A stretch of 64,000 nucleotides of DNA, taken from the NCBI RefSeq assembly GCF_003073045.1, contig NC_037596.1, positions 30,760,184-30,824,183 on the forward strand, given 5' to 3'. The notes under the pieces were generated by a model. That model searched no databases, was not told where the DNA came from, and was given only the letters and a program-made list of their open reading frames with translations. Below, piece after piece: positions 9,177 through 60,221 of this stretch (its first letter is position 1; every line of letters starts with the position of its first letter). A program made the position numbers and the translations under genes. This DNA is from Pomacea canaliculata (Eukaryota > Mollusca > Gastropoda > Architaenioglossa > Ampullariidae).

Positions 9177-12100
9177 ATGGTGAAACTCACGGAATTATGT
9201 TTTGTGATGTTCTTGATGAGCATTTGTGGTAACTTTTAACTGTTTTTTCTTCGTTTTGTAGGTGGCTATAACGCGTAGATTTTCTTTGTTATTCTTAATA
9301 CAAAAATGGTGTTTGTATAAATCGGTTAATCGAAACACAACGTTTCCAGAAAATGTGCTTTGGACCTGAAAAGGTTTTGTTTGTCATGCTCACTGTTTCT
9401 GCCTAAACACTTTTTTTTACTAGTTGTTAACTAAATATGTGATAATGCTTTTTCATTGCAAGTTTTTTTTTTCCATCCTTTTTAGTTGGTTTTTTTCTGT
9501 TTAGCAGATGAGGTTCATAATCTTAGCTATTCCTTCATCCTCTATGCACAAGGCTAGCTTGTGTTGAAACTAAATCGACACTCAAATTCAAAACATGTAG
9601 GATTTTGCTACAAAACCTTTATCTATGAAGTAGGCGCAGAAACATTCTACTCGGACATTTATAAACGTTGATGCTTCCAAGTTTTTCCCACCTTTTCTGG
9701 AAATACTGGATTCTGGAGTCTTCTCTCCTATCATACCTGACATTAATCTGTACATTTTTGTTTGCTCGTGCATGTGTAAGCCAGCTTTCCTATCAGAATT
9801 ACATTGTCCCATATAACATGGGAATCATAATCTTAATTACTACGTGGAAATTTGAAATTTTCACTTTGTGCTTACGTGCGCGCTCATACAGACATGTATA
9901 AGTGTGTCAATAACTAAACGTATCTCTTACATTTATTTTTCTGTTTAGAATCCACACTGAATCTGTGTGAATCACCGAAAGGATACCTGGAGGTGGAGGA
10001 AGGAAAACAGAATAACACGTTTATTTGTTCAGGGTTAACAGTAAACACGACCGTTTCTTGGTTCCGGGATGATAACAGGCCAATAGGCACGTGTAATGCT
10101 ACTCAGATCAGTCAACCATGCTCAGGCGTGGTGTTCGCAACAATATTCAACATGAGCAGAACTGTTAATACCTCTACCATTACTGTCAATGAAATGGCAA
10201 CCCCCCAGAAAGATGTTTTCAAGAATGGCTCTCTATTATGTCAGACCTCTACAGTTGGTACAAAACTTGAGGAAACACGATGTCAGTTTGATTTAATCAG
10301 TAAGTGACTTTGATTGAGACCTTTTATAATCTCATCAGTGAAAGGTTATTAAAAATCATTAAATAAACAGTTAACCTTCTGTAAATAAACGCATAAATAG
10401 GATTGTTTTTTACGAAGTACGAAGTGGTTGTGATGGGAAAGATATTCAAGCCGAATAGACTTGATCAAATATTTTGAGCACGAATGACTGTAAAATAACT
10501 ATGAACGCAAACTTTTAAAATTTTAAAACTTTTTATCAATATTAACTTCTAACAATAGATTAGAATACAGTTATTTTCTTACTATATAAACACCAATATT
10601 TCTAATATTAAGATATTGATTGAGATTCGCATAAGAAACATGAATGAATGGAGTATAGAAATCATTTATTTTAAGTTTTTCAAGGAACGTTATTCTTTAG
10701 TTGCAATATTTACTGTTTTAAATGGTGAAATTGTATTTGAAAAATATAAAAGATAATACTTCACACTCTGCGTCTTTTAGCGCGTCTCTAGGTCACTCCC
10801 TGCCTTTCTACCTCTTTTTTTCACTACTTCCTTCTTTCTATTCCCTCGTGAATGTTTCCACACCAAGCTGTTTGATAGTTTTTGAATCGATTCGAGAGAT
10901 GAAGAAAGTCAGATCAGTAAACACAAAAAATGAAGGTGTAAAATGTGTTTCTGTGACTTTTAGTTCCAGCTACAGGTGTTGTATGTAGTGGCGAGTATAA
11001 CAGCAGCCTGTGGGCTCTGACAGGACAGTGTGATGTCGCACGTGCAAACTCCTCGCGGGGCAGGTACTACTGTCTGGTATACCAAATCAATCAGGTGAGG
11101 AAACTATGTATTGATATATAAACTGCACACCCACTAACATTTATTAATCTAAGTTCACAGTTGTCTGTAAAAATTGTCTTTTTTTAAAGAATCTCCTCTA
11201 TCCACACGTCTTATCGCTTTTTCATAATTTAATACAAATTCTCTTGATGAAGAGACCAAATGGGCTTGATTAGTCTGACCAATAAGTCATTTTCTTATAT
11301 ATATATGTGTGTGTGTGTGTTTTGTATTTGCAGAAATCTCCTTCTGTTCAGAGTTTAGTGGGCAATTTTACTATGTCCAGACCTGACACTTATGTGAATG
11401 GCACATGTAAAATAAATAGCCCTCTACCTCCAGAAGGAAATTACAGCTACAACATCATAATTACACCTGGTCAAGCACAAGTGCTTCTTTCATTTACTGA
11501 AAGTAGTGAAATTCGTAAGTTTTCATTATTTTTATTTCAGTTTTAGTGACACTAATACGACTAATACTAACACCACTACTGCTAGTAAAAAGACATGATG
11601 ATACAGTTTGTACTCGGTGTAAAAACTAACCCGAGGAAGCCATGGATATATTAATTGTGCATTTTCCCACTTTCAGGACCTCCTTCTCAGCCTCCTAGTC
11701 ACAACTGTCCGCTGTATGTTGAGGAAAACGACGATGTGAAGTGTAGTTGCTACACCACAGACCTCGGCAAGCCGTCTGGTCTTGTGATGTGGACAGAAAC
11801 TGGATCATCGGTGCTGAGGCTTGAGAAAGTCAACAGGACACAACATGAAAATACTTACACGTGTAGCCTGATGTGGAACAACACAGATGTACTTAGAGTT
11901 AACTACACATTACAAGTAAACTGTAAGTATGTTGTGTTAGCAAGTGTTGCTCATCAGCTTTCGCTCTCCATTTGTGTTCATCTGTATAAAAATGCCCCAA
12001 TACTTAAAACTTTAGCAATGCTTATCAGTTTTACACACTGACAGACACAGTATAAACGCAAGAGTACTACACCTGACTCTTTTTTATGATACTTTTTTAT

Positions 12101-13477
12101 TTGTGTTTATTTCGTTGTGCTTCTTTAGTTTTCTTCTGTCCTTTATTGGTGTTTCCTATATTTTAAGTCCCTTCTTGATAGCTTTACAGAACTGTTTGAA
12201 AATTTTTAGTTGAATAACGCAAAAGGACATTGTCGCATAATATCCTAGCTTGCTTTTACTAAAAAATTATGTCGGCTTAGTTTATTGCTAGCTACGCGTT
12301 TTGAATACTAAAAGACATCTACTGTTTTCGTACAAAACTAATTTCTTCAAGTCTAGTTCCTTATTTCGCGTCTTTTATCTTTAAATACCACAGATTCAAT
12401 GACCCATAAATCACTGTCGTCCGTTAAATAGTGAGTAGAATATTCATGATTATTGCATGTGTCATGTGTTGACAGACTCATCACGTGTGCTGACTTTCAA
12501 AATAAACAACATGGACATCGACACTGTGAATGTTAGTGAAAACACAGACTTGACAGTTGTTTGTAAAGCTGATGGCAGACCCACACCCAGTCTAAGTCTC
12601 TTCAAGAACATCGACAACCAAAAGTTTAAACTAGCAGTTGTTAATGATTCTGATGAACTAACACATACCATGACTGCTGTGACATGCCAAGATGCAGGCA
12701 ACTACGTTTGTCAATCAGAAAACATCATTTGTGTGGATGCAAAATCGATCCAGGTGTTTGTTTTCTGTGAGTATTTTGATTTGGGAGTTATGATTAAGAT
12801 TTAAATTTTATGACTAGTATTATAATTAGTCACATTACCTCGTAATTAGCACTTTTTTCTTGTACTTTTATCATAAACTGTCTACACAGCCCTCGTTATT
12901 GATTACAGGAATTAATAATGTTACTATAGTAGTAAAGATTGAATTATGTTACTTGGCAAATCATTGCAGTATGGGATATTTGTGTAGAACTAGAAAGCAA
13001 TTATAGCAGTTTTAGTTTAAATACAACTATTGCAGAAGAATAAACTGTTTATTAAAGCAATAAATAATTCATCAATACCAAACTAGTTTTAACAGTCCAT
13101 AAAAATGTAAAATAATCTGCGAATGTATTATAATCTTTAAATGTGTCAAAATTAAATAAACCTATGTATCGTCTAATTATTGAAGAGAAATCTGATTATC
13201 CATGCTTTACAATTCTTTGATGGGATAATTAGCCTGTATTCTGTATAATGTCTTATGTTTAAGAATATTGGAATTGTAAACTTTCTGCTACAGTACACTA
13301 TAGTTTTATTTCGCAACTTTATGACAGCTATATTCAGTAGTAATTTAAATATCTCTGTTCACGCATGACTGATGTTTTTCATTTTTTTCATTTTTTGACA
13401 AAATGTTTACGCTTTTGTTCAAACATTTTCTAACAGTCTCCTAATCAATATCAGGGGTTTTACTGAGGATTTAGCAG

Positions 13478-13522
<45 letters not shown>

Positions 13523-16500
13523 TCTAGGCCCTCCAAGAAGACTAACAAACGAATCATATTCAACAACACTTGATGGTGACGAAGCAAGTTTTGAAATGAT
13601 CGCTTATCCAGATCCTGATTCACTCATCATTATTTCCAATGGATCTTCACTCAACGACACCAATACCACAAAGCTGGAGACTAACATTTCTGCTGAGTAT
13701 CAATGCACTCGCGACAGTTTGCTTTTGTACAGGACTACCTGTCATGTTATTTTCAGAAGTAAAACAGTTTACAGTGCTGGTTTGTACACCGCCATTTTCA
13801 GCAATGTCTTTGGAAATGTTTCTTTTACCTTCGAGGTCAAAGGAGAACTGCATCCAGCAACAAAATCAACAAAACCCTTAGGTAAGTCGTATTAAGTATT
13901 AACATGCACGAAACACAAAATGATCTTCCAAAGATCTTCCACCTTCCAAAGTCACTTCTAATGTGTGTAAATATTCGGTGGCAACATTAATTTGAATTAA
14001 CATTAAATAACGTCTGCCTTAACTAACGATAAACACAATCACTGTTTACTCAAATGGTGTTTGTAGATGAGAGATTGCTAGATGCTGAACTCCACGTTGT
14101 CCATTAGACTGAAATAGAAATTCCTAAAATTCCTCGTTTTAGAGAGATTCAGCGACAATTCAACCGACCGCTTACTAATATTTATATGTATATGTCTTTA
14201 TATCAACATAAAACTATTCACAACTTCGATTTTATTTTCCCGTTCCGTGTTTCTTTTTGGTTTTTGTTGCTAGTTAGTGTGATTTCGTTAAAAAAATTGT
14301 TTAATTCAATTTTCTTTAAAACACGAGGGATAGCAAGCACTTTTCCATGAATATTTGTTACTATGTCTACAAATAATTAGTGCAAAAAATTTTAGAGAGA
14401 AAACACACACACACACACATATATATATATACAAGCGCGTAGGCATTCGTGTGCGTGCATAGTTGTGAATGCAGGCTTACAAGTAAAGTTGTCAGAAATG
14501 ACATCTTTGTACGTTAGTACTAACACATAAGTTGATAAATGAGAACAAATGTAATATACGACAGCCTGCGATACTGTTGATAACTGATTACAAGCCTGCA
14601 TCTTTTCTGCGCTTATATCGTTACAGTCGTATGGATGTATACAAGTCACATTGAAATACATATCTTTGCAACATAAAGTGTGACATGTCCCTTAACGCGA
14701 TTTTTTATTTTTCTGTTCACAGGAGCCCCACAAATAACAGAAGAGAATATAACAGTACCTGTCGTGGGAGGGGTTATTGGTGGAGTCTGTTTTGTCGTGT
14801 TGGTTGTCGCTATCATCATCTTAGTTGTCAGACGGAAAGGTAAATGAACTTTTTGATTCCTTTATAAAGGCTAAGGTAGGTATGTGGGAAGACATTATTG
14901 AAGCAAATAAATTTGCGAAATTTCATCTTATGAAGAAAGATCATATATATTTAATTTCAGCTCAATTCATATTACAAGTATAAAGTAGGCAGAATTAGCA
15001 AACACCTACTATGTTAAATTACTCTAAAGAAAGGCCATCAAAACGTTTGTGCCAGATGTGCAAGCAATAGGATCTTCATTTACTTTTGAGTTTTACCTTG
15101 TTCTATCTGCAGGTACTAATAAAAAGGAAACCCCACAGTAAGTATAAACGTTCATGAAGATGAAAAAATGATAAATACAAATGGTGGGATTATAAACATA
15201 CATTTCGCCAGGTAAAGGACACGATTTTTCAAGATAATTGATTCTTTGAACTTCTCATGGGTACTGATATATATATATACACACACTGACATATTCTTAT
15301 ATGATACACAGCCTCTCTCACTCATTTTCACACACACACAGACTCACACTTTGCTAAGTCTTCCAGGTCACCATCGTAATAACACAACGGCTTGATCTAG
15401 TAAGGGTCTTTTTATTTCTTGATGTTAATACAGAATGAAACTTACAGAAACTAGGATTTGAATATAGCAAATCAATAACTTGTTGCCACATTGGTCAGCG
15501 ATATTTTTACAGATAAATAAATAATGATATTTATCCCCTGTATACTTAGTATCAAATATATATACAACCATAACGTTTACTTGAGAGGCCCGAGAGCCAT
15601 CTTTGACCAATTTTTGTCAAGAATTGGCTTTATAATATTTTGCAGGTTGACTGAAGCTATAGAAGAAGAACAAAGTTAGTTTCTTGCTTTTCTGGTTCAA
15701 CTGGTTATTCATTTTCAAGTGCCGTTTTCAAAAGCTTTCAGTTTTTAGTTTTTATTTTCATCACTTTTCAAATTCAAATAGCAATGATTGATCGGAAATA
15801 TAACGATAAACAGTAATAATGAACTTGACTCAATATTACTGAAAATTAATAAAATATACTTGAATAAGCCGTTTTGTCAAAGTCTATAATAGTTTGAATT
15901 TTGCAGTTTGTATTAACTACGTTTACTTTTAAGATGAAGAAACAGAGACAGATGTTGACAAGAGTCACTCACAGTCAACAACAACAATAGACTCGACCGC
16001 ACACGACGTGTACAGTGCTGTAGTCAAGAAAGGAGTAAAACCAACAGCTACAGACTCCACAGACTCGGCAGTTTCACCAACAAATAAAGATGTAAAAAGT
16101 AATAAAGAAAAAGAGAAATCGAAGAAAACAGCTGGAAAGGGCAAAAAGAAGGAAAAAGGTATCTATGACATGGATTTCAATCTATTACATTACACAGGAG
16201 TAATTTTGTAGGATCGTATGAACATGCGCCACAAGACAATGTGTTATGCCAGCCTTCGTTTCCCTGTTACAATATTTTATCCTTTCGAGATTGAAGTTCA
16301 AGCATCTTCATTCATCCTCCCCTGGAACACACGTGACTCAGACCGCCGTGCCATGGAGCTTTGGCTGTGTGGTGGGAGTGTCCCCTGGTCCCAGTCCTTC
16401 GCCGCGGGACACCGTCGTTAAACATTCACCATCACCATCATCCATATTGGTTTATAAAGCAACAAATGTGTTCACCGTTAGTCGGCACTTTAGTAGTGAA

Positions 16501-17565
16501 AAGGGCAAAGTAGTGTAGCTCGAGCGTGGGCACCCATCTATGTCCACGCAAGCCCCGCACCAAAACATTACACAATGCAAAAGTTCTAAAAACATGGTCA
16601 TGTATTTTTCTCACAAAGGCAAAGGAAACCTAATCACTGCAAAAAGTAGTTGTATAAGAAGAGGGAAGGGAACAGATTAAATATTAGAATAAAAAGGATA
16701 TAAAGCATGCAACATTTTGTGTGTGTTGTCGCTCTCATGTTTTGGGACAAGTTTTTTTTTTTTAAATTAGTAGCAGAGATCACATGGTGTGTTGCTGTGA
16801 CTTATAACTATGTCAAGTTCTCACTAGGCTTACTTTGACCATTTATTACTTATAAGTCAGATTTATAACTGTTTCAGAGACCTTTTCAAAGTCTCCAAAG
16901 GGAGCGTCCGAGTATGAAATCTTTGGTTTTGATGAAACACAAGGACAGGTTGGTACAGTGCGAGGAAGAAGTTTTAGATAGATAGGTCAATGCAAGTGGG
17001 TCGGCGAACGTTTTTTATTTCTAACCGTAAAGTTTAAAAATAGAATTTTAATGTAACTTCAGGCTGTATCTGTTATGCTAAACAGAGTCATTAAACGAAA
17101 CAAATGAGGTAAATGTATTATTAGACCAATCTGCAGTAAAATTAAAAATTTAACTGACTGGCATATTTAAAGATTTTTTGAAGTAAAATAAATTAAGTGA
17201 TGCACAATTGCATTTAGTTTAAAAAACTGTGGAAAAGAGTTTTCTAAAATCTGTTTTATTAGAAGAAGTAAAAATAAACTAAAAACCTGCCAAAAATAAA
17301 TTCTGGTTTTCCCATTTCTCACTACTTCACAGTAACTGTATTGTAGTGAACCCATGTTAAAACAGTTTAGTAAAATTAACAGAGTTTAAAAATTCTCTGT
17401 TTGCAGAAAATGAAAGGAGCAAAAGAAACCAAGCGTCGAAAAGAACAAAATCTCAACTACACCATTGTGGTGTTTGATGACACTTTGAACACACCCACAC
17501 CAACCCCAACATCTGACAGAACAGTGTATGCTGAAATAGTTGGGGGAAAGGTGGCTAAATTTTAA
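9177..17565 (+). CDS. Gene A: five-Ig-domain transmembrane receptor with ITIM/ITSM tail
   Basis: Thirteen exons splice to 2232 nt, 743 aa: 9177-9228, 9949-10299, 10964-11094, 11334-11514, 11677-11922, 12476-12766, 13528-13881, 14723-14839, 15113-15137, 15646-15674, 15934-16158, 16878-16948, 17407-17565. All have AG/GT borders, and phases agree throughout. Residues 1-17 are a signal peptide (MVKLTELCFVMFLMSIC). Then come D1 (18-134), D2 split over two exons (135-238), Ig3 (239-320, C..W..YTC), Ig4 (321-417, DAGNYVC, I-set-like) and Ig5 (418-535, no core Cys pair). The membrane span is about 549-571 (GGVIGGVCFVVLVV). The 172-residue tail has a Lys-rich stretch, DVYSAV (Y619), LNYTIV (ITIM, Y709) and TVYAEI (ITSM-like, Y732). 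In known families such tails recruit SH2 phosphatases or adaptors when phosphorylated. The start is chosen because gene B keeps the same ATG. Many NxT/S sites indicate a glycosylated surface protein. The ligand is unknown. Confidence 0.87.
13478..13520 (+). repeat. (TTG)n microsatellite next to exon 7 of gene A
   Basis: About 14 TTG units end 8 bases before the first base of exon 7, so the repeat occupies the place of the polypyrimidine tract. Gene B has ordinary sequence there (ATTTTTTCTTTAG). Length changes could alter acceptor strength. Confidence 0.9.
16215..16560 (+). repeat. Possible retroposon 3' end in gene A intron 11
   Basis: This stretch is more GC-rich than the intron around it and contains 'TCGCCGCGGGACACCGTCG' followed by a (CACCAT)n-like tail near 16425-16445, a form typical of non-LTR retroposon ends. 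No coding similarity was recognised, and gene B has lost this part of the gene. Low confidence. Confidence 0.3.
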
Positions 17566-22116: not shown

Positions 22117-25100
22117 ATGCTGAAAGTCACAGTATTATGTTTTGTGGTTTTCTTGATAAACATTTGTGGTAAGTGTTTAACTTTTAACTTTGCTTTGTAT
22201 GGTAGGTGGCAATAACACGACAGGTATATTTTCTATGTTTTGCTTAATGCAAAAACAGTGCATGTACAAACCGGTGAACCTAAACACACACTTTTTACTG
22301 TCGATGTGTCAAAGTCAAGAATATGTTTTCCGGGAATACCTTACTTTCTGGCTTTCTCTTCTTTTCTTGTATACCCTTTACTTTTGTGCATGCTTGTCTG
22401 TTTTTGCATGTGTGAGCCAGCTTTCTTATCGTTATTACTTTATATACATGTAAGAAAGGAATCAGCATTTATTATTCTGTAGAAACGTGAATTATCTACT
22501 TTGTACTTATGCATACATGTGTGACAAAATAGTAAACCTAAATTTGCTTATTTCTTTAGAATCGACACTGAATCTGTGTGAATCACCAAAAGGATACCTG
22601 GAGGTGGAGGAAGGAAAACAGAATAACACGTTCATTTGTTCAGGACTAACAGTAACTGCGTCCTTCTCTTGTTTCCTGGATGATAGCACGGCATTAGGCA
22701 CGTGTTATGCTACTCAGCTCAGTCAACCATGCTCAGGCGGGGTGTTGCCAACACTATTCAGCATCAGCAGAACTGTTAATACCTCTACCATTACTGTCAA
22801 TGAAACGGCAACCACCCAGAAATATGTTTTCAAGAAAAGCTCTCTATTATGTCAGACCTCTACAGTTACAACAACACTTGAGGAAACACAATGTCAGTTT
22901 GATTTGATCAGTAAGTGACTTTGCATACATGTCATTAGTAAAAGCTTATTAAATATTATTAAAGAAGCAGTAAACTTTCTGTATAAAATATAAATAGGAG
23001 GAATTTTTATGAAGGACTTCAAGGCTTCGGTAGTGGTTGTGGTGGGAAAGGTATTCATGCAAGATAGACCTCATCAAATACCTTGAGTATACATAACTAT
23101 CAAATAACTATGGGCTAACTTTATGGCTATTGATTTTTTTATTGGTAGTATATATTTTAAAGAATAGATTCAGAAAAAAATTTCTTTACCTTAAGAAATA
23201 TACACTTTACAAGACTAGTTTTAATGTAAAAATGATCAAAGTAATTTACTGCACTAAAGAAGATGCGTCTAGGAAACAAGAATATATTCAGTATAATAAA
23301 CTTCTATTTTTAGTTTTTCATGGAACTATATTCATTGGGGACAAGATTTAGAGAAACTGTATCAGAGAAAAAAACCCACTAAACGATAGCATTTCATACC
23401 ACATTCCTTTTCACTATTCATGTTTACGTGCCATGCTGTGTGACAATTTTTATTGATACCAAAGATGTACATAGAAAAGCGAAGACAACAAGAGAAGAAT
23501 TTAAAAAATGTGTTTCTGTGACTTTTAGTTCCAGCTACAGGTGTTGTATGTAGTGGCGAGTTTAGCAGCAGCCTGTGGGCCCTGACAGGACAGTGTGATG
23601 TCGCACGTGCACGTTCCTCACGGGGCAGGTACTACTGTTTGGTATATCAAATCAGTCAGGTGAGCAAACTATGTACTGATATATAAACTGTACACTCACT
23701 AATATTTATTAATCTAAGTTCACAGTGGTGTGTAAAAATCGTCTTTTTTAAAGAATCCCCTCTATCCACACGTCTTATCACTTTTTCATAATTTAATACA
23801 AATTCGCTTGATGAAGGAGACCAAATGGGCTCGATTAGTCTGAAAGTTTAATACCATGGATTCAAGGGCCAGTAAGTCATTTTCTTATATATATGTGTGT
23901 GTGTTTTGTATTTTCAGAAATCGCCTTCTGTTCAGAGCTTAGTGGGCAATTTTACTATGTCCAGACCTGACACTTATGTGAATGGCACATGTAAAATAAA
24001 TAGCCCTCTACCTCCAGAAGGAAATTACAGATACAACATCATAATTACACCTGGTCAAACACAAGTGCCGCTTTCATTTATTGAAAGTAGTGAAATTCGT
24101 AAGTTGTCATCTTTTTTATTTCGTTTTCAGTGACACTAATGCGACTAATACTAACACCACTACTGCTAGTACAAAGACAATCATGATGATACAGTTTTTA
24201 CTCGGTGTAAAAACTAACCCATTATGGATATATTAATTGTACATTTTCCCACTCTCAGGAAGTCCTTCTCAGCCTCCTAGTCACAACTGTCCGCTGTATG
24301 TCGAGGAAAACGACGATGTGAAGTGTAGTTGCTACACCACAGACCTCGGCAAGCCGTCTGGTCTTGTGATGTGGAGAGAAACTGGATCATCGGAGTTGAG
24401 GCTTGAGAAAGTCAACAGGACACAACATGAACAGACTTACACGTGTAGTCTGATGTGGAACAACACCGATGTATTTCAAGTCACCTACACATTACAAGTA
24501 AACTGTAAGTATTTTGTATTAGGAAGTGCTGCTCGTCAGCTTTCTCTCTCCATCTCGTTCCATCTCTATAAAAATGCCTCAATACTCCAAACACATAAAA
24601 AATGTTTATCACTTTCACACACTTTATGACAGACACAGTACGACCGACACGGTACTACCTGGTACTAACTCTGACCTTTTTCTTTTCTATTCTACTTTTG
24701 TTCGTTTATTTTGTAATCGTTTCAACTGTCTTAAAGAGGCTCATACATGTTTATCTCAGAATATTTTCTCTTGAATTCCCCTTGTCCATTTTAATGTGCT
24801 TTGAAAGTTTTCTTTATTGCATTATTTTACTTGTGTTTATTTTAAGTCACTTCTACATGGCTTAAGGAAAATAGTTGAATTACGTACAAGTACAATATCT
24901 CAGATGTTTGTTCTAGCTAATTTGACTACTATAGTATTTAAATAACGGAGCAGTTGATTATTAGTGAGGCGTTTTGAATATTTACAGAATGCTACTGTTT
25001 TCGTAAACACCTTATGCCTTCAAGTGTACATCCTTATTTATCATCTTTCCTCTTATCAGACATAGACAATAGGCAGTATTCAGAATTGTCGCATGTTTCA

Positions 25101-26810
25101 TGTGTTGACAGACTCATCACGTGTGCTGACTTTCAAAATAAACAACATGGACATCGACACTGTGAATGTGAGTGAAAACAAAGACATGACAGTTGTTTGT
25201 AAAGCTGATGTCAGACCCACACCCAGTCTAAGTCTCTTCAAGAACATCGACAACCAAAAGTTTAAACTATCAGGTGTTAAGGATTCGGATGAACTCACAC
25301 ATACCATGACAGCTGTGACATGCCAAGATGCAGGCAACTACGTTTGTGAATCAGAAAACATCATTGGTGTGGATACAAAATCGATCCAGGTGTTTGTTTT
25401 CTGTGAGTATTTTGGTTTTTGAGTTCGAATTAAAATTTGAATATTATGTTTAGCATTAGTGCCATCCTCTTTATCTTGTAATTATCACTTGTTAAGTTTT
25501 TCTTTGTACTTTTTTCATAAACTGACTATACTTCTCTTGTTACTGATTGTTGACATTTTAAAGTTTGGTGGCTATTAGTAGTAGAGAGTGGATTATGGTA
25601 CTTGACAAATCACAGTAGAGAGGGAGGCAAACGACATCGGAACCAGATGAACCCACCTGAGGGGGGCTGCCCTAAACAAGGTCCGCAAGCGAAATGTTGT
25701 TGTGGCCCTCTGCTCCTCATGGAGTAACAAGAAATAAACTAAACTAACGAAAAATATTTGCAATATGTATAATGTGTGTAAAATGCGAAAGAATATAGTA
25801 TTGTTGATAAAAGTACAGCTGATGCAGAAGAATGTACTGTTTATTAAAACAAAAGAAAATAATCCATTAATACCTAAATAATTTTAAAAGTTTATGAAAA
25901 TGTACAAATAATCTGCGACTGGTTAGGTATTTCATATTTACATTTTAACGTGTAAAAACTAAATAAGGTTATATATTGTCTAATTACTGAAGAGTAATCT
26001 GATCACCCATGCTTCACAATTTCTTCGTGGGGTAATTAGCGTATCTTCTTTAACCTGCGTATGCCTATGTTTAAGAATATGTGATTAGTGAATTTTCTGC
26101 AACAGCACACATTCAACAGGCAAACTCACTAGCACTTTAAAGTACTCTTTCCGGTTTATTCAACACAAAATAAATGATGGGTTCTTGGTTTCTAGTCTCT
26201 ATAAATCCCACTATAATGTCCTACTAGTAATATATCTTTTTAAAGTAAATATATAAACAAACAATGAAGCCAGTCATTGAGAGTCTATATACATATACTG
26301 TGTGAATTTATACATAGTTTTGGTGCCGTTTCACTCATGACCAATCTTAGTGAATCATCGGAGGTGCTCACAAGTATATAAATTTTCCACAAGTTACAAA
26401 GGTGTTATCTCAATTAGAGTTATATGTCGGGAGAGTTAGAACAACGTATTTTATTTTTTCTTTAGGCTCTCCGAGAAGACTAACAAACGAATCATATTTA
26501 ACAACACTTGATGGTGACGAAGCAAGTTTTGAAATGATCGCTTATCCAGATCCTGATTCACTCATCATTATTCCCAATGGATCTTCACTCAACGACACCA
26601 ATACCACAAAGCTGGAGACTAACTTTTCTGCTGAGTATCAATGCACTCGCAACACTTTGCTTTTGTACAGGACTACCTGTGATGTTATTTTCAGAAGTAA
26701 AACAGTTTACAGTGCTGGTTTGTACATCGCCATTTTCAGCAATGTCTTTGGAAACGTTTCTTTTACCTTCGAGGTCAAAGAGAAAATGCATCCATCAACA
26801 AAACCCTTGG
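22117..26810 (+). CDS. Gene B: tandem paralogue of gene A, ectodomain exons intact
   Basis: Exons 22117-22168, 22560-22910, 23529-23659, 23918-24098, 24259-24504, 25112-25402 and 26466-26810 match gene A exons 1-7. The first six have the same lengths as in gene A (52, 351, 131, 181, 246, 291); the seventh is 345 nt against 354. All are open, with good splice sites and phase 1 junctions. They encode a signal peptide (MLKVTVLCFVVFLINIC), D1, split D2, Ig3, Ig4 and Ig5. Most domains are over 90% identical to A by eye, but D1 has a 40-codon block with 18 replacements, including loss of the core Trp (W to C). The downstream membrane and tail exons are damaged (separate entry). If exon 7 is read into its intron, translation stops after GKSC at 26824, giving a soluble five-domain protein. 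It could be a decoy or secreted receptor, or a young pseudogene whose first exons have not yet decayed. Confidence 0.78.
25618..25752 (+). mobile_element. Truncated LINE 3' end in gene B intron 6
   Basis: A stretch unlike the surrounding AT-rich intron contains 'CTGAGGGGGGCTGCCC', 'AACAAGGTCCGCAAGCG' and a 'CTCCTCATGGAGT' hairpin, and ends in 'AATAAACTAAACTAA', the short A-rich repeat tail typical of 5'-truncated non-LTR elements. Gene A lacks it at the same place, so it inserted after the A/B duplication. Confidence 0.55.
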
Positions 26811-27723
26811 GTAAGTCGTGTTAAGTATTAACATACACGAAACACTTCTTGATCTCATCACCCGCCACAGCCACTTCTAATGTGTGTAAATGTCCGGTGA
26901 CAACATTAAATTCAATTAATATTTAAAAAGTCTGCCTTAATTAATGCATCATTATAAACTTAATCCCTATTTACTCAAATTGTGTTTTTACATCAGATAT
27001 TGATGAATACTGAACTAAACGTTGTTCATTAGACTAAAATGGAAGTGCCTAAAATTCCCAATTACAGAGGGGTTTGTGAGAAAGTCAGTTAATTAAACCA
27101 ACCGTCTATTTAACTATTCAATACAAACGTAATATATATCATTCACGACAACTGTAATTTCATCTTCCCTTTTGTGTTTTTTTTTCCCTTGTTTTGATTG
27201 CTCCATTAAAAATATTCTCAATGGAAATGTTTAAGTCTAAATCAATTTTCTTAAAACCACAAGGCTTAGCAGGCACTTTCTCTAAATGTTTTTGTTACTT
27301 TAGATATATATATATAATATTCATTCTACGGATTAAGGTAACGAATACATATTTTTTTAATGAGTCGTAATGTAACATCTACAAAGAGACAGTCGAAAAC
27401 ATAACAGACAACACACAAACACACATACAAACGCGTATGCATTAATGTGTGTGTGCATGGTTGTGAACGCAGGCTTACCCTAACAGATGTCCGAAATCGT
27501 GAGCTAAATGACACTTGTACTCAGTACAAACACACAAGTTGATGTATGAAAAAAATATATATCTATTCGACAGCCTGCGATACTTTTGTTTATCTACTAA
27601 AACCTATCATCGCTTGTGCGCGGATATCGTTACAGTCGTGTGTTCGTATGCAACTATGCCTGTCACGTTCAAATACATATCTTTACAACATTAAATGTGA
27701 CATGTACTCCTTATGAAAGAAAG

Positions 27724-29140
27724 GCCACAACAGAAGAGAAAATAGCAGGACTTGTTGATAAGTTGTTATTGGTTGAGTCACTTCACTTTCGCCGTGCTGG
27801 TTGTCGCGATAATTATCTTTGTCATCAGGCGAAAAGGTAAATGAAATATTGAATTCCTTTACAAATGCTAAAGAGGTTATTGTGAAAGCATCATTAAAGC
27901 AATTAAATTCGCAAAATTTTACCTTAATGAAGAAAGATTAAATTTTAGTTCAATTTAAATTGCAAGTACATATATTAAGAGACCAGGATTAGCAAACTTG
28001 TACTGATAAACTATTTGAAAGAAATGCCATAGCAACAGAAAAGGCAATTTTGGAAGCAGTAAGATCTCATGTACTTTATTAACATATTTATTATCTCATT
28101 TACTTTCTTTACATTTATGAGTTTTTACCTTGTATGACAGGCCCAAGTAAAAATGGTTCGTCACGGTAAGTATAAATGTTTCTGAAATTGTTAAAAAATA
28201 ACACAAATGGAGATAATTCATTGCATCTTAAACATCAGTTTCGTCAGGTAAATGATCTTTCAAAAGACTGAAAATTCTTTGACCTTTTTATGTGTATTAG
28301 CACACACACTCATTTTAAGTCTTGTATGTTATCGTTCTAAGTAATAACTTAATAAATCGAGCTAATCAAGTAAGGCTCCTTTTTACAAAATATGGAAATG
28401 ATGTGATTGAGGATTTTGAGCACAGTAAAGTAATAAATTGCACAGTGTAAGCACAATTTTACAGTTTAACAGCCCTAAATACTTATACTGAAATATACCT
28501 ACAATGATTGTTTTCTATCCAGAGCCGTCTGTTAGCGATTTGTTTTATTGTCCAAATAATAATTTTTTTTATATCACTTTGCAGGTCGACTGGAGCTACA
28601 AAATATTATATTAACGAAGAAGAACAAATTTTGTTCCTTATTTTATGATCACTTATCGTGCATTTTCAAGAGCTCTATGTGTTTTCAATGTTCATCACAT
28701 TTTTAATCCAAATAGCTAAGTATGATTTGAGATATAATGATAAACGTAAATAAATATGTCAGAATATTATTAAAAATTAAGAATATATACATGATTAAAC
28801 TGTTTTGGCAAAGAAAACAATCGTTTGAATTTTCGCTGTTTTTAATAAAGCTTTTAGAAGGAGAGTTCTAAAATATAAATCAACGTCACACTACTTTTAA
28901 TTTTAAGATAAAGAAACAGAGACAGATGTTGACAAAGTCGCTCACAGCCAACAACAACAATAGACTCGACCACAAAGGACGTGTACAGTGCTGTTGTCAA
29001 GAGAGGAGTACAACCAACAGCTACAGACTCCACAGGCTCAGCAACTTCACCAATGAATGAATATGTAACAAAAAGTATCAAAAGAGCAGTGAGATTAAAG
29101 TAGAACACATGGAAATGGTAAAAGGAAGGAAAATGGTGTC
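27724..29140 (+). pseudogene. Decayed membrane and tail exons of gene B
   Basis: This matches gene A exons 8-11. In exon 8 (to 27836) the stretch between the GAAGAG block and the GTGCTGGTT block is 4 nt longer than in A, so the membrane span (its end still reads VLVVAIIIFVIRRK) is out of frame with the part before it, and the usual CAG acceptor is gone. Exon 9 (28141-28165) keeps 25 nt and good splice sites. Exon 10 (from 28585) has a 16-nt insertion and has lost its donor. Exon 11 (from 28908) has a 1-nt deletion after GATGTTGAC that brings a TAG within a few codons. No match to gene A exons 12-13 with the ITIM/ITSM motifs follows. The gene has therefore lost membrane anchoring and signalling. 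Confidence 0.8.
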
Positions 29141-31145: not shown

Positions 31146-31512
31146 CACACCCATACACACTTTTTTCTCCACTTCCCACCCCACACACGCGAACGAGACA
31201 GAGAGAGAAGGATACAGAGAGACTAGGAAGATGCAAGACACCAGGATACCAATTACTACAAGTGTGTGATTAGTCTTGTAAAACGACCCGATATTTTATT
31301 TTATTTCTACAGCTAGACGAGTCTCTACTTGTCAAAAGTGGAAAGCCTTCTTCTAGACTTGGCATTGAAATAGATAGTGTACCGCGAGTGTCTGCAATTA
31401 AGATTTGTCGCTGATACAAAAGACTGACACTTCCTTGGTTGTACACATGTATATATTGTTTTATGATTGCAATCATCTGTTTTCCATTAATATAATGTTT
31501 CTTCAGTTTCTT

Positions 31513-34500
31513 CTACTTGGAAGTGCCCGGTGCTAGTTGGAGGTCAAGAGATGTTGCAGTTGTAACTGAACCAGGAACACTATTCACCAAGGGATCCTCG
31601 AGGGCGCTGCTGGTACCCACACCGTCAGCCACCGACACGGAATGAGATGAGACCACAGACTGCTGGGCCTTGTATGAGAAGAGGAGACCTGAAGAACACC
31701 AAACACTATCAACAGTATCAAAAAAATGGAGTCTTTGTATATGTGGTTTCCATGACAGCACAAACATGACAACGGATTATGAGACATACTGCACAGATCA
31801 CACAAGGCTCTCTCAAGCTTATTTTATTTTTGTTTTATTAGTTGTTTGCATTGAACACTTTCCTAGAACATGACCCTCTCTTGTACTTATTGGATGATTC
31901 CTTAAGTAGATCGCTGAAAATATTGTTTAGAATATTTTATACTATTCCCGATTACTTCGACAGAATGAAAAATAGTCGTTGTAAAATTGAGACAGAAAGT
32001 ATGCTTACTCCCCCACTCCCGTTTTATTTCAAACAATCATTGTGCAGGTGCGTGCTTTGCTATGTGTAAATAGAAAAATATACATTTTCATGGTTGTCAT
32101 GAAAGTGCTTGTTTATCGTAATCTCTTAGTCGTTAACATAAGGACAACCATAACCATAATATAAAAAAGCTATTATATTTTTTAGTTTTGGCCCCTTCCT
32201 TAGTGTTGTTTGTTACAGTCTCAGAGATTTAAATACCTTGATAACCAGCTCTAAAATAAGTGGAAGAGTTAAATGACTTAATTAGACCATCTGACCCATT
32301 GTTAACCAGCATCACACAAACAATTTCTCATAACGGAAATAGCGAGGTGAAATATTCGCAAACACATGGCTTTAATTCAAATAAATAAATCTCTGTTGAA
32401 AGCAGTCTTTTAAACATACTTTAGTTCATACCGACAGTTATCTATTCTCTCATTCTTTTCTGTTTCATCTTAAGAACAGCAATATCATGGTGAAGCTGTT
32501 CCATTGAAGGTCATATAAGTGGTTGACAGGATATTGTTATCTTGTCATATCTCCCTGTCATGGTACCAGTGCTCGAAGAATAGAAAGTTCTATAGGGAAT
32601 GTAAATTTAAAAGACACTTCACAAAAGAAGAGAACTTGTAAGTGTCTGGAAGATAATCCTGATGATCCTAGATGATATCGAGTGCTAGGTTTCAATTCTA
32701 AACATAGACAAGTCTAATAAAAATCAGGACAGTAAACTTACAAATATATCGCTTTAGGAACAGTAACATGTATGCCATTGTGTTAATTGTGGTGTTGTCG
32801 TTTTTATTGTTGTTGCTAGTAAGTACACCAGTAAAGCTTTAAAGAATGGAAAAGTTTGGTAGATATGCATGTCTAAACACAAAATCAGTCTCTCTCCTTA
32901 GAAGCGCGGTGTTACTCAATGTAACCTCCTAGTGCTCGCACCCACCGAAATTAGACAAGCAACAAATAAATTATATACTCAGTCTTTTTACGTAAGTAGG
33001 AACGACTTATATTTACGACTGAAGTCTATCCATAAAAAAATTCTATACTTTAGTACACCAATACTGTTATGTCACGTTCCTGCTTCAGACCACCACGTGA
33101 CCATGTCCTCGTCTGGTGTTTCTCCAGTTCCCTCATCTTTGTAAACATTCCAGGTGCTGATCGATGAATATTTGAAATGTGGATACTTGTGCCTTGAAAA
33201 TTTTTGAAGAAACCTGAAGATCTGAAACTGAAGACCACTAAAGAACAAAGAACGAGCAACTTTATTTCTAGAGCACAAACATGAACATGCGAAAGTTTGC
33301 GCGTGAGCGTTCTTGATGATATGTATGTAGACTTTAAATTATCTGAGACTTTGATAACCATAAAGTATAAAATATATTTATAACTGACTCAACAATGTAA
33401 AATGTAATTATAAATATGCGCAGTATAAATATATATATAGCGTACGGCGACTTGATAGTCATGAATATTCACGTCAGCGAGACTGGCTCAATCTTGTCGG
33501 CCACGGTTTAGTCGCACATCCTGGCGGTTAAGCGGTTTTGCCAATCTCACGATCACCGACAACGCTGGCAAACACTGGGGTTTGCCTGGGGAAGGCTTGG
33601 CAAGCAAAAACCAATGTTACAAGCTTTCCCCAAGCTTGGTAAAATCTTGCTTGTTTGCTGACCATTCTTAGAAATACTAGCTTTTCTTCAACTCCTGCCT
33701 ATTTGAGACATATAGGTGTGATTGAGAGAAAAATATTAAGATACTATTTCTCGTGCCTCTTTGTCATAAAGTGTGTGTTTGTGGATACTGTTTGCTCTAT
33801 TTCCAGCGATGTCGGTTTAAAGCTCGTGTTGGCCTTTAGACCGAAGGAGACTATGACTATCAGAGAAGGAGAAGCGCTGTAAAGTCTCTTACCATCTACA
33901 TCGTTGCATACTTAGTAATCATAAAGTGCTTTACCTGACTGAAGTGTGTGACAATGTATATTATACACTTGGTGTGGAGTGTATGTAAAATATATGTGTG
34001 TTCGTGTGTGGGTGATTTTCCGGTTAAGTGCGTTTAACTGAGGGAAACTGGAGGCATCATTTCTGTCATCGTCCTGGTTAACAAAAAGCCCTTTAAGAGA
34101 AATTTCTAAAGACTGTTCATTATTATTGGAAATTAAAAATTATACCTGCGATATTTTGAGGAAGAGCGTGCACAGCAAATGAGAAGTTTCCCGCCTGATT
34201 GATGATCATGACCTTGTAGAAGCCAGCTGTGTCCGATGTCACTTTTGTGACAGTGATGGTGCAGAGCATTTTATAACTAGATGGAGGACTTGGATTGCAG
34301 ACAACAAGAAATACACCTTCTCTGGCAGGTTCTTCGTTTGGTCCCAGGAAATACTTGGTCACATTCACAGATGTAGGGTAAGCAATCAGCTCCATCGTCA
34401 CAGGTTTACCTTCTTCAACAGTTGGAGTTGTATAGTTAGCATCAGCAGGATTTCTTCTGGGCGCACCTGAATAACACATAATCTTCTCCTTCATTTTAGT

Positions 34501-37500
34501 TCTACTGAGTAACTTATCATGCTCAATTACATAATGATTTTGAATAAATACAAAATAAAATAATTATAAACATCAATAAGAGTAATAGAAGACGATTGAA
34601 TCTTCATAGAAATTTGAAGACATTACTGGCCTGTCCTTACTCTTCATGACTTACTTCACGAGTCAGAGACCAGTAACCTACATCTCAACAAGTCACGGAG
34701 ATATTTATTAAAATAAATACATAACTTAATGGAGTGAAAGGTGACCAGCTAAGAATTATAAAAGGTATTAAAAAAGTGGATAATTTACCTAAAGAAAATC
34801 CACTAATAAAACAAAAACTACGAGACATGAAGACAATCCATGAGATATAGAGATAGAGAAAAGTGTGGTGAATGTATATCTAAACCATAAGAAGCAAGTT
34901 TAAGTCCCTACTGACATACAAGCAACAAGAAGTGTGTAGGTCACCGACTGCACGACTGTCCTGTTCCAGGTGAGACTACACACGTAGTTCACTCCATGCT
35001 GGTCCATCTTCACACCTGGGAGTATGAGTTGCTCTGAGCTCATGTTGTTCCACTTCAGTTGTCCAGGAGGTGAACCCAAGTCGTTGACAAAGCAAACACA
35101 ACTTACAGAGTTGTCTTCTTTGACGTACAGGGGACAGTTGTGATGTGGAATACTTTTAGGTCGACCTGAAACCATAAATATACAAATAATGAAAACCAGG
35201 AGAGTTTACCTCCAAAAATGATGCACACCATGGACTGAGGAATCAAATACAACCGTATTAATGATTTATCGTTTTACTTCCATGTTATTAAGAGCACGTG
35301 AAGACCTTCGTAAATCTCGCAAAATAGTCTTGTATCCTTGGGTATTAACTGATTACATTTGTATTTCATTTCCCTTTTTTCACTGAAAAGAAATGCAAAC
35401 TGACTTTATAGAAGATAATAGCTTGTATGCACACAGTTGTAGGAGATGAGAAGCTTGATATATTTTTATTGAAAAAAATTCCCTAAACATAAGTTGTTGA
35501 TTTTAAAACAACTGTTTGGATGGTTTTTATATATATATATATTGGAAAATCAAACACAAATTCAGTTTTTCAACTTGCTTTCGATGTTATAAAGCATAAA
35601 TGAAAAGGAAAAACACCTACGAGATAGAGTCCTTTCAATTTCTTATACTACATCGTTCACTATATTTCTTGTCTCTTTTCTTTGCAATTGTGTGTGTGTG
35701 ATTGTTTTCTGCAGGATGTAGAAAAATGAAAGATGGTATTCTTAACAAGCAGGCAGGTACAAATAGTTAAACGACTCACGTATTTCATTGTTTCCGTAAA
35801 ATACAGCGGACACATTTACTTCCCCTGGCATGATGAGCACTGTGTAGCTGTATCTTCCGTCAGGTGGCAGGTAAGAGGTCATGTGACACGTGCCTGAGAA
35901 ATAACCTGACGGTGTGGAGGCCTCTGTGCTCATACTGAATGACCCAACTCTTACTGACTCTTGCGAACCCTACACAACACGGAAATTAAAATATACAATA
36001 AAGTTATACATTGACAATTAGACAATTAGATATTACATACCCTAAATACAACAATCATTTTGGTAACATACACTTTAATCCCATAATATCTATCATTATG
36101 CAGCATCCTTAATTGTCAGAAAATAACAAATCTTTGTAATCTTAATACAACTTTCCTCTTTCACTGAATGGCTCGAGATAAAGTACTTAGAAGCTGATGT
36201 ACTAAGGATGGTTAATTAACAAGTAATACAGTGTCCTTTCCAATACCTGAAAGCATTTATTGTGATGTATGTTAATTCATAAAGAGTTCGTCATTGTGTG
36301 AAAGTTTAGACTGTTTTTTTTAAATGTTACTATAAATGTGATACATCGAAATGTTTTATAAACTATACATAATAACTATCTTCATACCTGTGTCTGGTAT
36401 AAATAACATCCATATTTCTTTCTCCTGGAGCGGACTTTGGAAATCAAGCAGGATCCGGTTACTTCCCATGTGTCTCCATTAAACTGAATTTTACATGTAA
36501 TGTTTTCAGCAGGGTCTGAAACGATAATAATTCTAATTTGTTACTCGACAGTACTTTAAGGAGTTAATAAAAGCAAAGAAAAAAATTCTAAAGAATTAAA
36601 TAAAGAAGAAATGGATGTAACACACACACACACAAAATAATACTGAATGTCTGAGTGTTGATGTTGATGAGTTTAGAGAATGCTGACGGGACCAGTTCAG
36701 GCCTTGAAGTTTTCATGGATGTGGAAGATGTATTGACAGAGATGGAGAAGGGCGGTGAATAGCAAAAGCTTCTCTTATAGCAATTTCAATGCCAAAGTCC
36801 TGGAGGTGGACTTTGTAGCTTTCTTTGCACTCTACCTGTGCTCTTACTCTCTCAGCTCTCCCTAAAGACTTCTGTGTCAGGGATTCTATTTTGCCAGCAG
36901 ATATGTCAGTTCATGTGGACTTCATTAAGTTGCTTGGTGTGTCTGGTGTAAATAGTTCAGGTCTCACTGGCGTAGAGAATGTGTAGAAGAATGACTGCAG
37001 TGTTGTGTTTGAGAGAATGCTACCCAGACAAGTGAAATGCTTAATTTGGTCGAGGTTTCACCCCTTTAGTGAGATGTGAGGCTTCTGCTAAGGCTTGCTG
37101 GAGCATGACTTTGGATTTCAGGGTACTGGTGGTCAGACCAAAGTAACATGCAGCTGTCCCATTGTGTTTATTTTATTTTTGTATGACAGGCAATTTTCTT
37201 CATTCGTAGAAAAAAAACAAACTTACAAACTGAGTCCAGCGGACATGTCACACTTTCCTGAGCTGTCTCACATCTCAGACTAGTTGTACCAAAGTAGTCC
37301 AGGGTTGGAGATGCTGTGGCGAGAACTGTAATGTTGCTGGCTGTTGTCGATGCTCTGCTGATCCTGAAGAATGTATTAAAAGCTGCCTGACTGAATGTGC
37401 AGGATGCCGGAGGGGGCGGACAGGTAGCGACAAGACTTCCACTCCATAACCAGGCGACATCTTGCTGTTCTCTCAGTCCTGTACAGGTAAAGGTGTTGTC

Positions 37501-38589
37501 GTCGCTCTTCTCTACCACCTCCAGGTATTTCCAGTCGTCACACAAGGAAAGTGAGTCAACTAAAGCAACTGAAATATTTGTAATAATGCATCTTTTTAGA
37601 GTACTTGTTCTCACTATAAATTCTAATACAAAAAATGTATAGATATTTGATTTCATTTATCAATATTTTACATTATCGTTTAATACGTAGTAACATCATC
37701 TGTATCTTAAGAACTCAAATCCAGAGGACTGTATTTATTCAGTCAATGATATTTCTTGTAAGCCTCTCCCTCTTTTTTTTCCTCTCTCTCACTATAGACA
37801 CTAGTGCGTGAGGTGTCATCGATGTGTTCTATAATCTTCAGTGTATTACCAGGCGTCACATGTCATCAATGACACTTCAAATATTAAAAAATGTGTCGTA
37901 TTATACTACTTTTTCCTGGTGTATTTTAAATCACATAAAATGTAAAAAAAAACAATCAAAATGTGACTGACCAGTATATTACATGGAAGTAAAGCAATTA
38001 ACTTTTACTATCAGATCTTGACGATTTCTCTATATAGCTAAGTATATAAACCAATACCAGTGAGTCAGATCATCTTACAGCTCAATTTACTGCGCCTGAC
38101 AAAATCTAGCAATTATTATTAAAATGATATTTTGCTAATTACTTTTCTTCTTATTATAATCATTACAAAAAAGTTAAAGTTTTCAAAACGCAATCGTGAA
38201 CCAGCTATGACATCTTGTGTCATCTACATCTCTTCATTAAAGTATATTTAAATCGCTACAATTGTTGACACAATAAATGGAGGCCAATTACCAGACATGC
38301 ATGACTTCCCATTGACGAGTAGAGCGTTTCTCTATGAGATAATGTTGTTGAAACTTCTAATTCTTCTCGGTGAGTGAGAAATATCAGATAAACAGTGATC
38401 AACAATGAACGTTCACAAAAATCTTAAGGTGTTAAGCACGTAACTTCTAAATTTAAGGCTTATATAAACACATTATAATTAGTGAAAATACGAGAAGTGT
38501 AGAAGCTACTTACCAATCGACTGTCGTGGACATGAAAAGGCCAGCAACCAGAATGTCCCCCATATGTCTCTATTCCTGATAAAATTCAT
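31513..38589 (-). CDS. Gene C: Ig receptor paralogue without Ig4
   Basis: Minus-strand exons: 38514-38589 (76 nt, signal peptide with core GTFWLLAFSC), 37227-37568 (D1, YLEV..FTCTGL..VAWLW), 36388-36515 and 35780-35969 (split D2), 34920-35165 (Ig3, NCPLYVKEDNSVSCVC), 34146-34466 (Ig5, DTAGFYKVMI), 31513-31688 (last exon, Ser/Thr-rich, stop TAG). All borders are AG/GT. Junctions are phase 1 except inside D2. The sum, 1479 nt, is in frame and gives 492 aa. The Ig4 exon present in A, B and E is absent: only 453 bases separate the Ig3 and Ig5 exons. No membrane-span exon was found between 34146 and 31688, so the product may be soluble, or an exon was missed. The last exon is supported by an in-frame homologue at 60046-60221. 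AATAAA signals on this strand lie near 31295-31305. A LINE relic and a long intron separate D1 from D2. Confidence 0.8.
33072..33240 (-). CDS. Candidate alternative tail exon of gene C
   Basis: A minus-strand frame reads YSSISTWNVYKDEGTGE then TPDEDMVTWWSEA and stops. The duplicated locus (about 62940-63070) keeps YSSISVCNIYKDERTGE then APNEDMVEWWSED in the same frame, with changes but no frameshift in that stretch. An AG precedes it in both copies, but the pyrimidine tract is poor and no donor is conserved, so it may be a terminal exon used alternatively, or a relic. Acidic residues and one Tyr make a cytosolic tail plausible. There is no ITIM. Confidence 0.4.
33800..33882 (+). pseudogene. 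Fragment of an Ig-domain exon
   Basis: After a TATTTCCAG acceptor the plus strand reads LVLAFRPKETMTIREGEAL and stops. This resembles the first strand of an Ig domain (compare the start of the Ig4 exons, TVNVSENTDLTVVC). The duplicated copy near 63735-63795 reads VVVFKPKETITVT and GEAL with a stop between. Both lack the rest of the domain, so this is a remnant of another plus-strand receptor gene. Confidence 0.5.
36640..37140 (-). mobile_element. LINE reverse-transcriptase C-terminal relic in gene C intron 2
   Basis: On the minus strand broken frames read TIYTRHTKQLNEVHM and ICWQNRIPDTEV, preceded by AVILLHILYASET. This is the block that follows the reverse transcriptase in several non-LTR clades (typical form '[29 protein letters not shown]', 'I.WQDRIPDTEVL'). 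Stops and frameshifts are frequent, and neither a 5' part nor a tail is present. It is an old fragment with no function for the host gene apparent. Confidence 0.7.
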
Positions 38590-46950: not shown

Positions 46951-46954
46951 TCAG

Positions 46955-53588
<6,634 letters not shown>

Positions 53589-59347: not shown

Positions 59348-60045
59348 TATTTTAAACTCTCTCTCTCTCTTTCTCTCGTGTTCTCCCTACCTCAAGCGCA
59401 GACCTTGCTTTTGCCTCACTCTCTATTCAAAAAGCACATAAAAGAGATGTGCAACGAAAATATCTGAATAGAACATGTGTATTAATCTATCACGATTTCG
59501 GTGGTTGTTACTTCTTTGTTTCAATGTTTGTGGCAAATTGATGAGTTGGTAACTCAGTGCCATCTGGCTCTTACCGTCACCTTTAGTCTCTCTCTCTCTC
59601 TCACACACACACACACCACGCTCGCGTCCACACACACATTCTCTCTCTTTGAGTTTTCGAAACCAATTTTTAACGAAGCCCACACCCATACACACATTTT
59701 TTTACACTTCCCACCCCACACACGCGAACGAGACAGAGAGAGAGAAGGATACATAGAGACAAGAAAGATGCAAGACACCAGGATACCAATTACTACAAAT
59801 GTGTGATTAGGCTGGTAAAACGAACCGATATTTTATTTTATTTTTACAGCTACACGAGTTTCTAGTTGTCAAAAGTGGAAAGCCTTCTTCTAGACTTGGC
59901 ATTGAAATAGTGTACCGCGAGTGTCTGCAATTAAGATTTGTCGCTGATACAACAGACTGACACTTCCGTGTTTGTACACATGTATATATTTTTTTATGGT
60001 TGCAATCATCTGTTTTCCATTAATATAATGGTTCTTTAGTTTCTT

Positions 60046-60221
60046 CTACTTAGAAGTGCCCGGTGCTAGTTGGAGGTCAAGAGATGTTGCAGTTGTAATT
60101 GAACCAGGAACACTATTCACTCTGGGATCCGCGAGCGCGCTGCTGGTACCCACACCGTCAGCCACCGACACGGAATGAGATGAGACCACAGACTGCAGGG
60201 AGTTGTGTGAGAAGAGGAGAC
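60046..60221 (-). CDS. Gene F: last exon of a gene C-like receptor (rest outside window)
   Basis: This is 176 nt behind a TGTTCTGCAG acceptor, equal in length to gene C's last exon (31513-31688). It reads GLLFSHNSLQSVVSSHSVSV then ADGVGTSSALADPRVNSVPG and ends APGTSK-stop, with eight replacements relative to gene C and no frameshift. The conserved frame, phase and acceptor argue that it is coding or was until recently. The remaining exons would lie on the minus strand upstream, past the window edge. Confidence 0.65.

Follow-up and report, generated by a model that had tools for sequence, protein, structure and literature searches.

Why should two neighbouring receptor-like genes differ in one short segment by amino-acid replacements and no purely silent change, when the codons just ahead of it differ by silent changes alone? 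The question is raised by a 64,000-nucleotide stretch of the apple snail Pomacea canaliculata genome (positions 30,760,184 to 30,824,183 of NC_037596.1; here, the window), which is part of contig C7 of the 440-Mb genome; some 96 kb separate it from the contig end. The genome has 39 matches to the mollusc haemocyanin beta-sandwich family, against matches in 0 of 14 control genomes, as befits a mollusc. The window contains two genes, A and B, that are neighbouring members of a subtelomeric array of immunoglobulin (Ig)-superfamily receptors in this mollusc; the array is called subtelomeric by its distance to the contig end. We found that replacements are concentrated in a 40-codon patch of the membrane-distal domain, and we consider it probable that this reflects diversifying selection on the binding face of clustered innate Ig-superfamily receptors. 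The comparison uses the following features:

9177–17565, plus strand: gene A, 13 exons, 743 amino acids, spliced by eye at AG/GT sites, with the frame open to the stop
9949–10299, plus strand: exon 2 of gene A, the distal Ig-like domain D1 (Cys-Trp-Cys pattern and splice sites; no Pfam match at E ≤ 1)
10041–10160, plus strand: hypervariable patch of gene A, defined by codon comparison, Nei–Gojobori (NG86) counts and shuffling
22117–26810, plus strand: exons 1–7 of gene B, a signal-peptide-like exon and five Ig-like units, 532 codons with no in-frame stop and with AG/GT splice sites
22652–22771, plus strand: hypervariable patch of gene B, by codon comparison with gene A

Replacements cluster in one patch of the distal domain

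Codon-by-codon comparison of 10041–10160 with 22652–22771 gave exactly the counts reported by a first-pass annotation of this DNA: 18 of the 40 codons differ, all 18 by replacement and none by a purely silent change. The five silent and zero replacement codons that it described ahead of the patch were borne out for the 30 full codons at 9951–10040. Its sharp boundary was found at the left edge only. The first codon and the last two codons of the patch are identical, so that the changed stretch comprises exon codons 32–68 (10044–10154); to the right of the patch, 13 identical codons (69–81) are followed by eight more replacement codons and one silent codon (codon 115). Over codons 32–114, A and B differ by 26 replacement codons and no purely silent one.

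By NG86, replacement and silent divergence (dN and dS) between A and B were 0.227 and 0.075 in the patch, 0 and 0.281 in the first 30 codons, and 0.048 and 0.089 in the exons other than exon 2. The patch dS is 0.075 instead of 0 because two of its 18 changed codons differ at two bases, and averaging over pathways then yields two silent steps. In the 532-codon comparison of the two genes, the maximum number of replacement codons per 40-codon window was the 18 found at the patch, a value reached in none of 20,000 shuffles (mean maximum 10.2), and a scan of six exons placed the top 40-codon dN window at D1 codons 29–68. The cluster of replacements is more than chance. The replacement rate of the patch was higher than that of the exons other than exon 2 (18/92 against 45/971 sites, Fisher p = 1.6e-6), and its dN exceeded gene-wide dS (18/92 against 32/356, p = 0.005, for a window chosen post hoc). 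The patch differences comprised 5 transitions and 15 transversions, compared with 34 of each in the exons other than exon 2 (p = 0.07; p = 0.046 against all other coding sequence), a suggestive transversion excess.

The same codons vary in some other copies of the array

Because the patch had been picked by eye in A/B, we applied its A/B-derived bounds to other pairs of D1 copies, including the following close pair:

34130–37554, minus strand: gene C, D1 at 37225–37554, with its last exon assigned by eye; forms a close pair with gene F
70704–70372 in window coordinates, minus strand, outside the window: D1 of gene F; close pair of gene C

Replaced codons in patch and flank were compared in nine pairs, including A/B. 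For C/F, 13 of 39 patch codons were replaced against 6 of 71 in the flank (p = 0.0014). A trio of copies, P1–P3, gave 16/35 against 7/68 for P2/P3 (p = 8e-5), 16/34 against 12/68 for P1/P2 (p = 0.002) and 8/34 against 6/68 for P1/P3 (p = 0.045). The three P pairs have sequences in common and are not independent, and the Fisher values for C/F and P1/P3 shift slightly with the trimming of exon ends. The distant pairs D/P3, D/P6 and P3/P6 gave p = 0.0008, 0.09 and 0.06, respectively. Over the four exons of C and F that were compared (D1–D3), neither of which contains stops there, the top 40-codon dN window was D1 codons 33–72; its dN was 0.223, and the next window at a distance of over 30 codons reached 0.074. 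P1 has one stop in D3 and two in D5, in the frames as chosen. Among 17 pairs with dS < 0.45, six had a one-sided Fisher p < 0.06: A/B, C/F, P1/P2, P1/P3, P2/P3 and, from another cluster, L037/L038 (p = 0.053), but in this last pair patch dS exceeds dN. The codons in which replacements are concentrated in A/B are thus also where replacement peaks in the independent pair C/F, within the exons examined, and the P1–P3 trio likewise has more replacement there.

We then fitted codon models by maximum likelihood (ML), in which the dN/dS ratio (omega) of flank and patch was estimated with either a common or a free patch silent rate. Twenty of 31 D1 copies were entered; P5, P6, D, I, L023, L027, L029, L031, L034, L039 and L041 were too distant or nearly identical to a copy already used. 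Copy G, although itself a member of the subtelomeric array, was paired with L030 and placed among six other groups. For A/B, C/F and P1–P3 together, omega was 0.54 in the flank and 2.38 in the patch (difference p = 1e-11), and a patch omega of 1 was rejected (p = 1.7e-4). With a free patch silent rate, patch omega was 2.17 (p = 0.022; difference p = 0.003). A/B alone gave a patch omega of 2.31 (p = 0.047), and the remaining pairs, with A/B excluded and a common silent rate, gave 2.35 (p = 0.0017 against 1). The diversifying selection first proposed from A/B is supported out of sample, in C/F and P1–P3, with a strength that depends on the model, as set out below.

Exons of A/B and P1/P3 diverge less than introns at silent sites

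Could the patch instead be a foreign segment, brought into A or B from another paralogue by gene conversion, as the first-pass annotation had also suggested? The sharp left edge fits such an event, as does a fall in silent divergence, which is 0.28 ahead of the patch and 0.066 in the patch and beyond (5/21 against 4/61 sites, p = 0.04), and exon dS in P3/P2, which spans 0.06 to 1.13, has the look of a mosaic. However, a foreign segment would carry silent changes, and the patch dS of 0.075 is below the intron-like value of 0.28 (two or fewer of 28, p = 0.007). A search of the whole assembly with D1 exon DNA matched A and B only, and the longest exact match to nine neighbouring paralogues was 10 nt. 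With no donor in the assembly or among the nine neighbouring copies, and with a low patch dS, we rejected the foreign segment, which is an improbable source of the pattern.

An assembly or sequencing error in this one exon was weighed in the same way. The sequence comes from a single assembly, without reads; yet the 40 codons lie in an open frame with no indel, the two copies are 12.6 kb apart between diverged introns, and the pattern recurs in C/F. We rejected such an error, the chance of which we regard as negligible.

The low silent divergence of the patch is shared with the other exons. Four-fold silent sites in exons differed between A and B at 15 of 206 positions (7.3%), compared with 598 of 2142 intron positions (27.9%; 9949–13881 against 22560–26810), and the corresponding values for P1/P3, upstream of the window, were 12/170 (7.1%) and 1157/2766 (41.8%). 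Intron divergence was taken from gapless blocks of at least 40 columns, which may include poorly homologous stretches; in the analysis that gave the exon–intron contrast of C/F, the comparison of patch dS with introns and the transversion counts, the P trio was represented by P2/P3 alone. One block extends beyond single exons:

10921–11940, plus strand: a block of about 1 kb, exons 3–5 with introns 3 and 4, about 93% identical to gene B; flanking introns are about 50–83% identical per 60-base bin

Silent constraint is unlikely to be the cause of the low exon divergence, because dS within parts of D1 reaches 0.35–1.8 in more distant pairs. Since exonic silent sites are much less diverged than the surrounding introns in A/B and P1/P3, these exon islands, together with the spread of dS in P3/P2, suggest exon-wise gene conversion between copies, which may keep the scaffolds alike. 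If this holds, the patch, with a dS like that of the other exons and below that of introns, would have been homogenised with its own exon and then quickly changed.

Position of the patch in D1

Within the membrane-distal domain, the patch occupies the segment between the first core Cys and a conserved 'SR'. If the order of motifs is read as that of a V-type Ig domain, the patch would take in its B–C loop, its strands C, C' and C'', and its second loop. The one lead among solved structures is the V domain of an antibody light chain (PDB, E = 0.07, not significant); in that alignment the patch falls on what we take to be hypervariable loops 1 and 2 and, between them, framework 2. Profile searches gave weak matches: Pfam Ig_2, Ig_3 and C2-set_2 each matched one of 22 D1 members (best E 0.019), and a PDB profile search with 22 D1 sequences found weak CD4 stretches only (best E 0.055). 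Three N-glycosylation sequons are present in the patch of gene A and none in that of gene B. Under diversifying selection, new side chains on the ligand-contact face would be favoured, with the first part of the D1 exon held constant.

Evidence against selection and the state of gene B

Several of our results weigh against diversifying selection, or against parts of the picture built on it. Inside the A/B patch alone, dN was not significantly above dS (18/92 against 2/28, p = 0.10). With A/B excluded and a free patch silent rate, patch omega was 1.84 and not significantly above 1, so that support varies with the model from the p = 0.0017 given above to p = 0.12. The highest dN windows of P3/P1 and P3/P2 lie in D5 and D4, where dS is high too, and the patch is therefore not the most diverged part of these genes. 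G/I, from the same array, are nearly identical, with too few differences to judge (p = 0.34). The exon–intron contrast in silent divergence was not significant for C/F (13/125, 10.4%, against 205/1232, 16.6%; p = 0.07), and the assignment of D1 to the V type rests on motif order and the non-significant light-chain match. In the six other groups pooled, all but G from other clusters, patch omega was 0.62 against 0.59 in the flank (p = 0.74), and it was significantly below 1 (p = 0.008). We therefore rejected the idea that the patch is hypervariable across the whole family. As both the pairwise tests and the codon model show little outside the array, the patch effect is mainly a property of the subtelomeric groups.

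Two further points against selection concern gene B itself. Its D1 has lost the core Trp, which all 9 outgroup copies and 28 of 31 copies overall retain, and at the 20 changed patch sites the outgroups favour the base of A at 12, that of B at 6 and neither at 2. Because the core Trp is lost and the outgroups side more often with A, decay of gene B is part of the A/B picture. The same residue is missing from L034 and L041, two D1 copies of the 2.7-Mb cluster.

Might relaxed constraint then account for the patch as a whole, with gene B decaying and its D1 patch drifting since binding was lost? Apart from the missing Trp, the excess of sites apparently changed on B's side and the absence of all three of gene A's patch sequons, the 3' part of the gene is damaged:

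27707–29118, plus strand: gene B counterparts of the membrane exon and tail exon 11 (alignment, blastn)

None of 11 AG acceptors joins exon 7 in frame to the hydrophobic stretch (six run into a stop, and five give another frame or skip it), although that stretch is itself still recognisable and open. Tail exon 11 carries a 1-nt deletion, and tail exons 12 and 13 were not found in the window by alignment or blastn. Gene B is possibly a soluble form or a young pseudogene and, if expressed, would give at most a soluble or non-signalling ectodomain.

Against decay as the sole cause stand the 26 replacement and no purely silent changes of codons 32–114 and a patch dN above gene-wide dS, in a window chosen post hoc. 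All seven ectodomain exons of gene B are open, with AG/GT sites and lengths that match those of gene A except for 9 nt in exon 7. The chance that 52 neutral substitutions would leave the ectodomain without a stop is 0.12, and introns 3 and 4 show 6 gap events per 28 substitutions between A and B. The ectodomain thus looks not long dead; this evidence is weak, as conversion from A could also have kept the frame open. Finally, the same codons vary in C/F, in which the exons compared are open, and in P1–P3. We consider relaxed constraint unlikely to be the explanation. The initial dismissal of it holds only in part: some of the A/B difference may be decay of a gene B that lacks the core Trp and an in-frame membrane stretch. 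It is the replicate pairs that carry the argument for selection.

Organisation of gene A and of the array

The predicted product of gene A begins with a hydrophobic N-terminus, read by eye as a putative signal peptide; five Ig-like units follow, then a hydrophobic span, likewise assigned by eye, and finally a tail. Residues 336–416 (unit 4) matched Pfam I-set with 35.8 bits (cut-off 23.7), and Ig_3, Ig_2 and ig were also above their cut-offs there; the remaining four were assigned as Ig-like only from their Cys pattern. The immunoreceptor tyrosine-based inhibitory motif (ITIM) is (I/V/L/S)xYxx(I/V/L). The predicted cytoplasmic tail, beyond the hydrophobic span, contains a match to this motif, the ITIM-like LNYTIV at residue 707, as well as TVYAEI at residue 730, which resembles an immunoreceptor tyrosine-based switch motif (ITSM). 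Gene A may signal through this ITIM/ITSM-like tail. Fibrinogen-related proteins (FREPs) have a fibrinogen domain after their Ig domains; no fibrinogen match was found at E ≤ 1 in the 574 residues of gene A scanned (exons 1–8). A run of GTT repeats (13480–13523) adjoins the acceptor of exon 7.

Searches with D1 gave 37 matches at E ≤ 1. Six with E > 0.1 were dropped, including L042, a partial match with stops elsewhere in the stretch; the 31 used all had E < 0.005, all lie on C7 and none has internal stops. They form clusters at about 2.0–2.8, 27.1–27.3, 28.1–28.2 and 30.7–30.9 Mb. The third-unit exon of gene A (exon 5) is far more widespread: 150 of 193 candidates were scored, which gave at least 148 genome matches at E ≤ 0.01, and C7 carries 142 of these matches; many are about 30% identical and possibly belong to other Ig-like genes. 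These matches form many clusters on C7, possibly a chromosome-wide Ig receptor complex. The last tail exon of gene A had three matches in the genome, all three inside the array. Beside C and F, two copies of a stretch of about 1.7 kb lie 28.5 kb from each other (31146–32811 and 59683–61357), with pieces 81–94% identical. One further gene of the array lies in the window:

46930–51723, plus strand: gene D, D1 at 46960–47274

Comparison with known receptor clusters

The vertebrate KIR/LILR families of the leukocyte receptor complex and the CEACAM/SIGLEC paired receptors form arrays of ITIM receptors; their distal Ig domains evolve fast, and some copies are decoys or soluble forms. The likeness to the snail array lies in these general features, and we claim no membership of those families. 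As a tentative conjecture, the receptor complex on C7 could match the vertebrate leukocyte receptor complex in scale: exon-wise conversion would keep the scaffolds alike, selection would keep the copies of the subtelomeric array distinct in a patch of the distal domain that resembles the segment from complementarity-determining region (CDR) 1 to CDR2, and copies without a membrane stretch, B among them, would be soluble partners or sequence donors.

Among molluscs, the closest parallels by description are in Biomphalaria. In the sections of PMC4361660 and PMC7494358 that describe them, the Guadeloupe resistance complex (GRC) holds single-pass membrane genes, six genes having 75-bp windows with dN over 15% among alleles, and polymorphic transmembrane cluster 2 (PTC2) includes two relatives of membrane genes that lack a membrane domain. 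As here, both are snail gene clusters for proteins that cross the membrane once, and they contain windows in which replacement divergence is very high; the PTC2 relatives without a membrane domain are comparable to gene B. They differ in that the divergence is between alleles within a species, whereas ours is between paralogues, and in domain content: by those accounts most GRC membrane genes have fibronectin III domains and PTC2 has no known domains, in contrast to the Ig-like units found here. We liken the GRC and PTC clusters to the array by description only. Biomphalaria FREPs are also diversified, Ig-containing immune proteins of a mollusc, going by the part of PMC7588048 that deals with them; unlike them, gene A has a hydrophobic span and lacks a fibrinogen match in the part scanned.

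In other invertebrates, the Alr genes of Hydractinia and fuhc/FcoR of Botryllus are, in the relevant part of PMC12065747, clustered receptors with ITIM-type tails. Those loci are tied to allorecognition, a function that the snail array is not known to have, and the same part of that paper reports no hypervariable region for Botryllus fuhc-sec and fuhc-tm. A search of open-licence PMC papers found no description of the gene A/B receptor family, and the word 'immunoglobulin' does not occur in the main text of an apple-snail comparison (PMC13336756).

In other snails, clusters of fast-evolving membrane receptors have a link with parasite resistance (PMC4361660, PMC7494358); in colonial animals, such clusters have one with self-recognition (PMC12065747). 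In the apple-snail array the signal is carried by one short segment of one domain in several copies, which offers a direct way in: a patch this short can be modelled and tested for ligand binding, and the array itself supplies natural replicates.
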